Translations under genes and position numbers: made by a program
Source: Gemmatimonadota bacterium
GTDB lineage: Bacteria; Gemmatimonadota; Gemmatimonadetes; Longimicrobiales; Gaopeijiaceae
Direction: 5' to 3'
Length of the DNA stretch: 34,601 nt
Assembly (NCBI GenBank): GCA_022563405.1
Contig: JADFNK010000023.1
Span: 1 to 34,601, forward strand
The notes under the pieces: generated by a model
Database searches by the model: none
Told to the model about the DNA's origin: nothing
Seen by the model: only the letters and a program-made list of their open reading frames with translations
Shown: piece by piece, positions 1 through 4,236 of the stretch
How the letters are laid out: each line of letters opens with the position of its first letter
Numbering within the stretch: the first letter of the stretch is position 1

Positions 1-2
1 CT

Positions 3-1214
3 ACGGTCGAGTCGGATGCCCCACCCGGCTCCCACCTCGAGGTCTCGCTGATGACGATCGGCCCCGGGGACGCCGTCTGGGAACGCTTCAGCCACAATGC
101 TCTCGTCATTCGAGATAATCGGGCTCAAACGGAGCTCGCGTACAACTGGGGGATCTTCGACGACCACGACGAGGACTTCATGCTCCGTTTGGCACGAGGC
201 CAAATGCTGTACTCGATGCAGGGCTACGAGGCCTCGCGCTGGCTCGCCGGGTACAGCCGGGGCAACCGCGATGTGTGGCTTCAACGGGTGAATCTCACGC
301 CCGGACAGCGCCTCGAGCTTCAAGCGCTGTTGACCGAGATGAACACGGAGGCCAACCGCTACTATCGCTACGACTACTTTCGGGACAACTGCTCCACTCG
401 CCTGCGTGACGCACTGGATCGGGTCCTCGGCGGACCGATCCGCGCCGCCACGGAAGGCACCGACACCGGGACCACGTATCGCTGGCACACCGCCCGATTG
501 CTCCAGTCTGTGCCGGCTGCCTACGCCGGAATCCAGTTCGTGGTCGGGAACCGCGGTGACGAAACGATCTCCGCCTGGGACGAAATGTTTCTCCCGTTGC
601 GTCTCAAGGAACATCTGGAGGGTGTCCGGATCGTGGATGCGGAGGGAGAGCCAGGTCCTCTCCTCGGCGAGGCGGTGCAGGTGCTGGAAGCCGTACGTGA
701 CCCCGTGCCGCTGGCTGCGCCCGACTTCCTATTCCCCTTGCTCTTGTTGGGTACGGCGCTCGGCGCGTTTTTCGCCGGCTTGGGTTGGGTGGCTGGTGAT
801 GGAAAACGCTGGGGTCGCTGGGCCCTCGCCCTGTCGGGAGCCGCTTGGAGTACCGGAGTGGGCCTGTTGGGCACGGCGTTGCTGCTGTCGTGGTTCTTCA
901 CCGACCACGTCTTCTGGACGTTGAACGAGAACGCGTTTCAGGCGAACCCGGTCTCGCTTCTGCTGGCGCTCGTGCTGATGGTCCTGCTCGTTCGCGACGT
1001 GCTGAACCCAAGCGATGGCCGGTCCGAAATCTGGGCCGGTAAGCGGGTCGGCGCTGTGGCCAAGGTGGTGGGCGGCTTGGCGATCGCTGGACTCTTCGTT
1101 CAGGTGTTCCCGGGCTTCGATCAGGTCAATGGTGAGGTCATGGCGGTGCTGCTTCCCGCTCACGTGGGGCTCGCGTGGGGCGTGCTTCGAGCGTGGCCGC
1201 CCTCCATGGTATGA
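3..1214 (+). CDS. Lnb-like (DUF4105) periplasmic domain plus membrane domain, 5' partial
   Basis: The reading frame is open to the left edge, so the true start lies outside the window; the ATG at 51 falls inside a conserved stretch and is unlikely to be the start. The N-terminal half carries the DUF4105/Lnb_N signature: WERFSHNAL with its His at 93-95, and later YFRDNCSTRLRD with a Cys at 390-392, a likely His/Cys catalytic pair. From about nt 720 on there are about five hydrophobic segments, matching the five-helix membrane domain of Lnb-type proteins. As I recall, Bacteroides Lnb is a lipoprotein N-acyltransferase. The stop overlaps the lnt start (ATGA), so translation is probably coupled. 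Family assignment is good; the exact reaction is inferred. Other DUF4105 proteins have unknown roles. Confidence 0.75.
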   Translation, partial: TVESDAPPGSHLEVSLMTIGPGDAVWERFSHNALVIRDNRAQTELAYNWGIFDDHDEDFMLRLARGQMLYSMQGYEASRWLAGYSRGNRDVWLQRVNLTPGQRLELQALLTEMNTEANRYYRYDYFRDNCSTRLRDALDRVLGGPIRAATEGTDTGTTYRWHTARLLQSVPAAYAGIQFVVGNRGDETISAWDEMFLPLRLKEHLEGVRIVDAEGEPGPLLGEAVQVLEAVRDPVPLAAPDFLFPLLLLGTALGAFFAGLGWVAGDGKRWGRWALALSGAAWSTGVGLLGTALLLSWFFTDHVFWTLNENAFQANPVSLLLALVLMVLLVRDVLNPSDGRSEIWAGKRVGAVAKVVGGLAIAGLFVQVFPGFDQVNGEVMAVLLPAHVGLAWGVLRAWPPSMV

Positions 1215-2803
1215 TTCCGGAGCGAGGCCAACGGCTACTCCCGGCGATATCGGCCTTGTTGGGGGTCAGCGCCTTTCCTCCCTTCCATTTTCTGATCCCG
1301 TCGTTCATTGCGCTCGTCCCGCTAGCGGTCTGGGTGGCAAACCAGAATGACGTCGAGGATGTCTCCGTCTCCAGAAGGGTTTTCCGGGGCGGTGTGTGGT
1401 TTGGTGTGCTCTACTTCGGGCTGCTCCTGTACTGGATGCCTCTCGCGTTGGCGGCCTTCACTTGGTGGGCCTTGCCGGCCTACTTGACCGCGGTCCTGGT
1501 GTTGGCGCTTGGTGCCGGGTGCTTCACCTGGGCGCTCCATCGTTTGACCCATGTTGGCGGAATCCCTCTTTGGTTGGCACTGCCGTTGACGTGGACGGCG
1601 CTCGAGTGGGCGCGAGCCCACCTGCCGGGAGGCCTGGCCTTTCCGTGGTTGGGGCTGGGAACGTCCCTTACCGGCTATCCGGAGCTCGTGGGTTCGGCCG
1701 AGCTGGTTGGTGCGCGCGGGATCACGTTGTGGCTCGCCCTGCTCAACGGGTTGATCGCTGAGGCCGTACTGGCCGCCAAGGCACGGGCCCGGCCTCGAAC
1801 CTTGGTGCGTTGGGCGACGGCGTTCGCTCTCGTGTTGACCGTGCCCGCGGCCTGGGGCTATTGGCGAGCCCGCACCCTTCCCATCCGGGCTGTCGGACGA
1901 ATCACCGTGGTGCAACCCAACGTGGCGGCGCAGTTCAGGTTGGACGGTGTCACGAGCAATGACAGCACAGAGGCCTCTTTGATGCGCCTCTTTCCCGAGG
2001 AAGTGGTCTCCTCGGGTCTCCCCGAGCAGGACGGCTTCTCCCCGGACCTCGTAGTCTGGCCCGAGGTGACGTTCTTTGGACCGATCGAATCCGATGGTCC
2101 GTTGCGGGAACGGGTCCTGGCGGTGGCGGAGAGGTGGTCTGCCCCTGTTGTGTTCGGCGGGATCGGCGAGACCGTGACGGAAGAGGGTAGGGCGATCCCG
2201 ATGAATTCGGCGTTCCTGACGGGGCGGGATGGCCGGCTCACGGATTTCCGATACCACAAACACCGGCTCGTCCCTCTGGTCGAGGGCGTTCCGTTCAGCC
2301 GGGGTGCCTGGCTGGAGGGGGGCATCGAGGTCGATTCCTATGGGACAGGATCGGATTGGCCTCTCGGAACCACGGGGGCGGGCGCCCGTTTCGGCATTCT
2401 CATCTGTAACGAATCCATCTACGCGAGCCACGCACGCACGTTTCGATTGCTGGGGGCCGACTTCCTCTTGAACCTCACCAACGACGGGTGGTTTGGTAGG
2501 GAGGCGTGGTATACCAGAACGTCTGCCCTTTGGCAGCACCCCGCGCATCTGGTCATGAGGGCGATCGAGCAACGGGTCGGTATCGCGAGGGCCGCCAACA
2601 CGGGCTTCTCGCTCTTTGTGGATCCGATCGGACGTGTCTACGGCCGGACCGAGCTGTTTCAGGAGGTCGTCCGTAGCGAGACGGTCTACACGAGTGACGT
2701 TCTGACCGTGTATACGCGTACCGGAGACGTGGCCGGTTCGACGGCTCTGCTCCTGACGCTCGGGCTCCTGGTAATCCCGCTGCCTTGGCGTCGCGCCGCT
2801 TGA
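1211..2803 (+). CDS. lnt: Apolipoprotein N-acyltransferase
   Basis: Lnt transfers an acyl chain from a phospholipid to the N-terminal Cys of diacylated lipoproteins at the periplasmic face of the inner membrane. The 530-residue product has a multi-helix N-terminal half (about residues 5-225) followed by a carbon-nitrogen hydrolase domain. The expected triad is visible: Glu285 in VVWPE, Lys350 in YHKHRLVP and Cys399 in ILICNES, with spacing close to E. coli Lnt. PLVEGVPF and LNLTNDGWFG are also typical. I chose ATG 1211 because it overlaps the upstream stop by 4 nt; an in-frame ATG at 1175 would overlap by 40 nt. The usual Tyr or Phe after the catalytic Cys is Asn here (ICNE), a mild departure. 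Confidence 0.93.
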   Translation: MIPERGQRLLPAISALLGVSAFPPFHFLIPSFIALVPLAVWVANQNDVEDVSVSRRVFRGGVWFGVLYFGLLLYWMPLALAAFTWWALPAYLTAVLVLALGAGCFTWALHRLTHVGGIPLWLALPLTWTALEWARAHLPGGLAFPWLGLGTSLTGYPELVGSAELVGARGITLWLALLNGLIAEAVLAAKARARPRTLVRWATAFALVLTVPAAWGYWRARTLPIRAVGRITVVQPNVAAQFRLDGVTSNDSTEASLMRLFPEEVVSSGLPEQDGFSPDLVVWPEVTFFGPIESDGPLRERVLAVAERWSAPVVFGGIGETVTEEGRAIPMNSAFLTGRDGRLTDFRYHKHRLVPLVEGVPFSRGAWLEGGIEVDSYGTGSDWPLGTTGAGARFGILICNESIYASHARTFRLLGADFLLNLTNDGWFGREAWYTRTSALWQHPAHLVMRAIEQRVGIARAANTGFSLFVDPIGRVYGRTELFQEVVRSETVYTSDVLTVYTRTGDVAGSTALLLTLGLLVIPLPWRRAA

Positions 2804-2904: not shown

Positions 2905-3111
2905 ATGAAAAAGGGTATCCACCCCGACTATATGTCGGCTACCGTCACCTGCGCTTGCGGGCATAGGTTTGAGACGATGGCCACACAGCCCGAGGTTCAC
3001 ACGGACATCTGCTCTGTGTGCCATCCGTTCTATACCGGTAAGCAGCGCCTGGTGGACACCGCCGGGCGGGTTGAGCGCTTCAAGAAGCGGTACGACAAAG
3101 TCAGTTCTTAG
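2905..3111 (+). CDS. rpmE: 50S ribosomal protein L31, zinc-binding form
   Basis: This 68-residue protein begins MKKGIHPDY, the standard L31 start; the frame extends upstream to an ATG at 2860 but that part does not resemble L31. GGAG lies just before ATG 2905. Cys16, Cys18, Cys36 and Cys39 (TCACGH and [12 protein letters not shown]) mark the C+ form that binds zinc, as opposed to the zinc-free YkgM-type paralogue. L31 bridges the ribosomal subunits. It stands 24 nt before prfA and is probably co-transcribed with prfA and prmC from the promoter at 2800-2828. Confidence 0.96.
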
Positions 3112-3135
3112 GCCGGGTGGAGGCCCCGTTCGCCC

Positions 3136-4236
3136 ATGAAAGACCTCGGAGGGGCCGATCCGCGGCTCCTCGAACGCCTCCGCGACGTGCAGCAGCGTTT
3201 CCAGAGCGTGAACGAGGAACTGGCCAGCCCGGACGTCATCCAGAACGTCGATCGACTCAGAGTTCTCGGGCAAGAGCGCGCGGAACTCGAGCCTGTGGTC
3301 CGTGCTGCCGAGGAGCTCCTCCGTCTCGTGGAAGAACACGAGGGTGCGTCGGAGTTGCTCAAAGAGGCCTCGGACCAGGAATTCCGCGATATGGCCGGGG
3401 AGGAGGTCGCGTCTCTGGAATCTCGCATCGAGTTGGTGGGGGCCGAAGCTCGCCTCCTCCTCATCCCCAAGGACCCGCTGGACGATCGCGCCGCTGTCGT
3501 GGAAATCCGGGCGGGAACCGGTGGAGACGAGGCGGGGCTGTTCGCGAGCGACCTTTTCCGCATGTACAAGCGAGTTGCCGAGCGAGAGGGCTGGACCATC
3601 GAGTTGATGAACCTCTCCGAGGGGATCCCCGGGTCCCTCAAGGAGGTCATCTTCACGGTGCGAGGCAAAGGTGTGTACGGACGCCTCCGTTACGAGTCGG
3701 GAGTCCACCGGGTCCAGCGTGTGCCGGAGACCGAGAGCCAGGGCAGGATCCATACGTCCGCAGCGACCGTGGCGGTCTTGCCCGAAGCCGAGGAGGTGGA
3801 TCTGGCGATCGATGCCAAGGACCTACGTTATGATGTGTTCCGCTCCTCCGGTCCGGGCGGTCAGTCCGTGAACACCACCGATTCAGCCGTACGCATCACC
3901 CATATTCCGACCGGGCTCGTGGTGTCCTGCCAGGATGAGAAGTCTCAACTCAAGAACAAGGCCAAGGCCCTCAAGGTGCTACGCAGCCGCCTGCTGGATC
4001 AGAGGATCGCGAAGCAGGAGGCGGAGCGCTCGCGTCAACGGAAGGCGCAAGTCGGAACGGGTGACCGCTCCGCCAAGATCCGGACGTACAACTTCCCTCA
4101 GAGCCGGGTCACCGACCACCGGATCAAACTTACGGTCCACACGCTGGACCAGGTGTTGGATGGAGACCTGAACGACCTGATCGAGGCCCTGCGGCTGGCG
4201 GATCAGGAGGAACGGCTCCAGGGCGAGGCGGAGTGA
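3136..4236 (+). CDS. prfA: Peptide chain release factor 1
   Basis: RF1 ends translation at UAA and UAG. The 366-residue length is normal. The catalytic GGQ is at residues 241-243 within SGPGGQSVN. The stop-codon reading motif is Pro197-Glu198-Thr199, in [14 protein letters not shown]; this corresponds to the P-x-T of RF1 and excludes RF2, which has SPF. The N-terminal coiled-coil domain (about residues 1-100) is intact. The stop codon overlaps the prmC start, fitting the functional link, since PrmC methylates the Gln of this GGQ. Start ATG 3136 gives the expected N-terminus; its ribosome binding site is weak. Confidence 0.97.

Follow-up and report, generated by a model that had tools for sequence, protein, structure and literature searches.

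Two overlapping genes at the start of a Gemmatimonadota contig encode an Lnb-like protein and the apolipoprotein N-acyltransferase Lnt. Both enzymes probably catalyse one and the same reaction, the final one in lipoprotein maturation, and the pair looks like the replacement of one enzyme by the other, caught midway. The genes are located in the window, i.e., the whole stretch of DNA that was analysed (34,601 nucleotides; contig C143 of genome G000, positions 1–34601), and their features are listed in Table 1. In the proposed explanation, the two proteins would be structurally unrelated N-acyltransferases acting on one substrate, the diacylglyceryl-cysteine lipoprotein delivered by Lgt and LspA, both of which are encoded in the source genome. 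Each would N-acylate the lipoprotein cysteine via a thioester on its own Cys, Lnt by means of a nitrilase-type Glu-Lys-Cys centre. The tandem would be an intermediate in the in situ displacement of one enzyme by a non-homologous one, and one state of a genomic slot in which the enzymes replace each other, with Lnb alone being enough in many relatives and Lnt still being under selection in the source genome. The probability of this account as a whole is estimated at roughly three in four. The first-pass annotation had already pointed to the presence of two N-acyltransferase families side by side as a puzzle, and their co-occurrence is indeed a real one.

Table 1. Positions of the features discussed; unprefixed positions refer to the window.
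Feature	Position	Strand	Basis or remark
Lnb-like (DUF4105) membrane protein	3..1214	+	403 codons within the window; PF13387 and NF051878 matches
Codon of His31, predicted catalytic His of the permuted NlpC/P60 domain	93..95	+	Kept in 109 of 110 homologues
Codon of Cys130, predicted nucleophile	390..392	+	Kept in 110 of 110 homologues; opens helix 130–142 in the model
C-terminal five-helix membrane domain (residues 243–397) with conserved H302/N308/P316 loop	729..1193	+	Model
ATGA overlap of Lnt start and Lnb-like stop	1211..1214	+	Lnt ATG at 1211; Lnb-like stop TGA at 1212–1214
Lnt, apolipoprotein N-acyltransferase, 530 aa, LNT_N membrane and nitrilase-like domains	1211..2803	+	TIGR00546
Codon of Glu285 (E. 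coli E267)	2063..2065	+	Alignment
Codon of Lys350 (E. coli K335)	2258..2260	+	Alignment
Codons of Cys399 (E. coli C387) and Asn400 (E. coli Y388)	2405..2410	+	Alignment
rpmE (2905–3111) and prfA (3136–4236), right-hand border of the slot	2905..4236	+	Slot conserved across Gemmatimonadota
Lysobacter Lnb-like gene at phoH-ybeY-corC-X-corA	L084:5929-7101, L082:5866-7113		Two loci read

The open reading frame of the first gene runs into the start of the contig, which cuts off its 5′ end. The final 183 bases of contig C63 from the same genome match window positions 1–183 at 97.3% identity, a difference that is probably due to strain variation that broke the assembly. C63 supplies the missing N-terminus of the Lnb-like protein, which resembles a signal peptide (...AVYWALVVFLAGAGPGPGPLSAQ...). 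A broken or truncated first gene is ruled out, as the 5′ cut is a contig end and the sequence continues on C63. Upstream of the pair, C63 encodes LolA (PF03548 match) and, judging by sequence, RimO and HemL together with a predicted outer-membrane protein and a Gfo/Idh-type oxidoreductase. Downstream of the pair lie rpmE, prfA and prmC, the first two names being assigned presumptively on the same grounds. The ATGA overlap noticed in the first-pass annotation is present, and a 4-base overlap is possible in several other Lnb–Lnt tandems too.

The identity of both genes is well supported, as both PF13387 and TIGR00546 score above their cut-offs. The first protein matches the Lnb_N domain PF13387 with an E-value of 7.5e-19 (68.4 bits against a gathering cut-off of 22.2) and the NCBIfam Lnb model NF051878 with 148 bits over residues 12–324. 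It is filed, on its sequence, as Lnb-like and not as an Lnb equivalog, because the equivalog cut-off of 550 bits is missed; for comparison, the DUF4105 protein of Bacteroides finegoldii scores 667 bits and that of Parabacteroides only 398. The five-helix membrane domain PF25221 reaches 20.5 bits, against a gathering cut-off of 25.2 that is exceeded in 45 of the 98 surveyed genomes, and the structural model does have five helices. Lnb is described as the N-acyltransferase of Bacteroides in a study on DUF4105 (PMC12994826). The window protein shares with Bacteroides Lnb (DUF4105; PF13387 plus PF25221; NF051878) a full-length alignment, the His and Cys, the DNC-TR motif and the C-terminal five-helix membrane domain with its H...N...P loop. 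It differs in its low identity (23–26% to the Bacteroidota Lnb/DUF4105 proteins compared), in its score of 148 against the 550 bits required, in adjoining lnt and in its host phylum, Gemmatimonadota. The identity and the score, which lies far under the cut-off, are points against the favored account.

The predicted catalytic residues are kept almost throughout an alignment of 110 homologues from Gemmatimonadota, Lysobacteraceae and other Pseudomonadota, Myxococcota and Planctomycetota (Table 1). In an alignment with the DUF4105 proteins of B. finegoldii, Parabacteroides and Hymenobacter, H31, D128, N129, C130, T132 and R133 are invariant, by which the conserved His and Cys read from the letters alone passed a check on active-site residues, and G287, G290, H302, N308 and P316 are kept in the membrane domain. 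An AlphaFold model built from 65 sequences (mean pLDDT 96.1, pTM 0.92) predicts an alpha/beta domain in which Cys130 opens a helix and His31 opens a strand, followed by C-terminal helices at residues 243–265, 269–299, 317–334, 339–366 and 377–397, which correspond to the five hydrophobic segments seen earlier. In a Foldseek search against the PDB, the sole relevant match was TseH (probability 1.00, E 0.028), no match reaching E 0.001. TseH is a permuted NlpC/P60 protein that, according to the same study, belongs to one superfamily with DUF4105 (PMC12994826), and the predicted fold agrees with a permuted NlpC/P60 domain. When the Lnb-like protein was searched by sequence against the PDB, MARCO was the only match and was judged to be due to chance, and a search of viral contigs yielded no relative.

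Some further PF13387 proteins were encountered during the survey. A second class (G071:C30, G073:C253, G084:C128 and others) consists of frames of approximately 290–330 aa that outscore the Lnb-like proteins with this domain model and look too short to hold the membrane domain. Second Lnb-like genes at L168 (G043) and L169 (G022) are near-identical across two genera, and one of these assemblies may be contaminated. In Bacteroides and Parabacteroides (L247:2429-5175 and L250:2417-5187), the Lnb/DUF4105 gene lies upstream of secA and overlaps, by 1–4 bases, a gene annotated as alkaline phosphatase family protein.

Mapping of markers on the loci of relatives revealed a conserved slot, lolA-rimO-hemL-omp-gfo/idh-[X]-rpmE-prfA, in which X is Lnt, Lnb or Lnb–Lnt. 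Its boundaries are gfo/idh (or omp) on one side and rpmE-prfA on the other. The tandem is found in 13 of the 98 surveyed Gemmatimonadota genomes (G000, G001, G003, G006, G008, G016, G021, G030, G031, G037, G041, G043 and G055), which belong to several genera; G002 is compatible with a tandem, its locus being interrupted by a contig end. Adjacency of DUF4105 and lnt thus extends beyond a single genome, and chance adjacency is ruled out by the recurrence of this gene order. The slot holds Lnt alone in, e.g., G026, G036, G044 and G092, and Lnb alone in G005, G033, G048, L035 and L074. Some other genomes have both genes at separate loci.

The direction of the exchange is illustrated by two genomes of the same genus, G016 with the tandem and G048 with Lnb only. 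In G048, the 3′ end of lnt persists in the 411-base stretch that separates Lnb from rpmE. This relic of 254 bp is 72% identical at the DNA level to the lnt gene of G016 (E 1e-34), contains an in-frame stop and lacks the catalytic core. Its protein match scores 45.8 bits, compared to at most 21.9 in 500 shuffles. The slots of G033, G005 and L074 were searched for similar remnants of Lnt, with no convincing match. In the Lnb tree, the window protein falls in a nine-row clade with full support that comprises six tandem and three Lnb-only genomes, and repeated loss of Lnt fits this pattern because the two states are intermixed within the clade. Lnt is the partner that gets lost, as in G048 by way of a relic and in G005 and G033 by its absence, or that is altered near its catalytic Cys.

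The presence of either enzyme was cross-tabulated, by hand from the search outputs, for 68 Gemmatimonadota genomes with a completeness of at least 90% and a contamination of at most 5%. Both genes occur in 24 genomes, Lnb with a divergent Lnt in seven, Lnb only in 24 and Lnt only in 13 (one of them divergent). The class with neither gene is empty against 4.6 genomes expected (Fisher p 0.0026), a value uncorrected for relatedness and optimistic because genomes inside one clade are not independent. Some of the absences may be gaps, since most genomes are metagenome assemblies. The single-contig genome G024 has Lnb and zero Lnt matches at E 0.001. Divergent Lnt-like proteins at L203, L205 and L207 (G073, G090 and G069) carry an I-C-K-D motif and lie outside the slot; their hosts are Lnb-bearing genomes from another family in the same order.

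Of 120 genomes of Lysobacteraceae, the family of Lysobacter tolerans, 115 encode an Lnb-like protein and only 28 an Lnt above the cut-off of the model. In E. coli, lnt has the neighbourhood phoH-ybeY-corC-X-corA. Lysobacter silvestris, with no Lnt over the cut-off, has the order phoH-ybeY-corC-Lnb-corA according to Pfam, and so does L. tolerans according to a reading of its open reading frames. Against the favored account, neither an Lnb-like protein nor Lnt was detected in three Lysobacteraceae genomes (G159, G229 and G233), which may be incomplete. All six Lnts read from the Lysobacteraceae group are long, with open frames of 816–1022 aa, and have C-L/R-D-D replacing C-Y-E. The Lnt homologue at L242:1729-4167 on the minus strand (812 aa) has a C-terminal extension without a Pfam match.

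The Lnb-like protein is predicted to be the more secure N-acyltransferase of the pair, because it fills the slot alone in the absence of Lnt, adjoins an Lnt stub and occupies the lnt position in the two Lysobacteraceae loci read. As the first-pass annotation suggested as one option, this protein may instead catalyse a different acyl or lipoprotein step; this could be phospholipid remodelling, with Lnt as the sole N-acyltransferase. The missed equivalog cut-off would fit this, as would the fold relatives, which in the DUF4105 study include lipases and toxins (TseH, Tox-Act1; PMC12994826). The suggestion is nevertheless not supported, as it leaves unexplained the Lnb-only slots, the relic beside an intact Lnb in G048 and the Lnb at the lnt locus of the two Lysobacteraceae, and it is considered improbable.

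The second gene of the window encodes an Lnt, which matches TIGR00546 with 213 bits (cut-off 132.9), as well as PF20154 and PF00795, and phmmer aligns it to E. coli Lnt structures at 5e-17. The Glu-Lys-Cys triad reported from the letters alone is intact, E285, K350 and C399 aligning with E267, K335 and C387 of E. coli. With the Lnt family (TIGR00546) it shares both domains, the triad, the equivalents of E343 and E389 and a score above the cut-off; the F416 equivalent is kept as well. Unlike the family, it overlaps an Lnb-like gene and has Asn400 in place of Tyr388, so that the tyrosine expected beside the catalytic Cys is not found here. The equivalent of position 388 is Asn in G000, G001 and G002 and Tyr in G003. 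Positions 388, 389 and 416 are required in E. coli Lnt (PMC5500890), and E343 is a required residue too. The Y388A and Y388W variants do not rescue. Acyl-enzyme formation persists in Y388W and E389A, which means that the second reaction step is hit (PMC5500890).

Between G000 and G001, dN/dS is 0.15 for Lnb, 0.23 for Lnt and 0.12 for prfA, and across pairs of the window's genus that of Lnt ranges from 0.13 to 0.24, near the Lnb value. Both genes are thus under purifying selection and are maintained, and a pseudogene status of the window Lnt is ruled out by its triad, TIGR00546 score and dN/dS. That the two enzymes serve different lipoprotein classes or acyl donors, as the first-pass annotation proposed, is possible, because both genes are under purifying selection and Lnt residues tied to the second step have changed. 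In such a division of labour both proteins would N-acylate, Lnb having taken over the bulk lipoproteins and Lnt being reserved for a particular acyl donor or class of acceptors. The joint retention in 13 genomes and the long C-L/R-D-D Lnts of the Lysobacteraceae group point in this direction. So does the distribution of changes, as positions 388, 389 and 416 depart from Y/F, E and Y/F in Lnb-bearing genomes only, with the triad kept; for position 388, the association with Lnb is significant when genomes are counted (p 0.004). Lnb-bearing branches, however, make up 79% of the Lnt tree length and hold all changes, and the clustering is not significant (P 0.2–0.4). As significance is lost once branch length is considered, these departures were dropped as proof of specialisation and kept as a lead. 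The Lnt/prfA distance ratio is likewise higher in Lnb-bearing genomes (3.2 vs. 1.9), although this comparison rests on few Lnt-only genomes. Moreover, the repeated loss of Lnt implies that any special role is dispensable. A division of labour is put forward tentatively, at odds short of even.

Alternatively, Lnt may be a mere leftover of a redundancy in transit, retained since loss is slow. The relic in G048, the independent losses in one clade and the departures at residues required in E. coli are what such a transit would produce, but the Lnt dN/dS near that of Lnb and the recurrence of the tandem in several genera speak against it. The stable keeping of both genes over several genera, contrary to plain redundancy, also weighs against the displacement account itself. 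Plain redundancy is a candidate with odds likewise short of even. Rather unlikely is the idea that Lnt in Lnb lineages has kept its acyl-enzyme chemistry and changed the residues that hand on the acyl group, using an acceptor other than bulk lipoproteins; the repurposed enzymes would then be the tandem Lnts and, in Lysobacteraceae, the long Lnts with C-L-D-D.

In general terms, the displacement of Lnb and Lnt has already been published: the DUF4105 study describes three genomic contexts where DUF4105 and Lnt stand in for one another and reads this as a sign of shared function (PLoS Biol 2026, PMC12994826). Its main text does not name Gemmatimonadota, Xanthomonadales or Lysobacter and, in the passages covered, reports neither a tandem nor a relic. 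There, Lnt is described as displacing DUF4105; in G048, by contrast, the relic shows that Lnt was lost. A literature search, outside of which lay most subscription papers and supplements, found no report of the tandem, an Lnt relic or the Gemmatimonadota/Lysobacteraceae host range; all three are considered new.

The LnsAB system of Staphylococcus aureus, in which LnsA is an NlpC/P60-like protein, offers another comparison. It also is a non-Lnt route to triacylated lipoproteins (PMC12345273), but consists of two proteins. The exchange is significant because bacteria of the E. coli type cannot do without Lnt, which has been proposed as an antibiotic target. Under the present account, many members of the Lysobacteraceae, a gammaproteobacterial family, would be expected to use an Lnb-type enzyme in place of Lnt, and this family contains culturable species. 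The Gemmatimonadota slot, with intermediates that hold both genes and end states that hold either one, in one case with an Lnt stub, represents a natural experiment on the replacement of an essential envelope enzyme.
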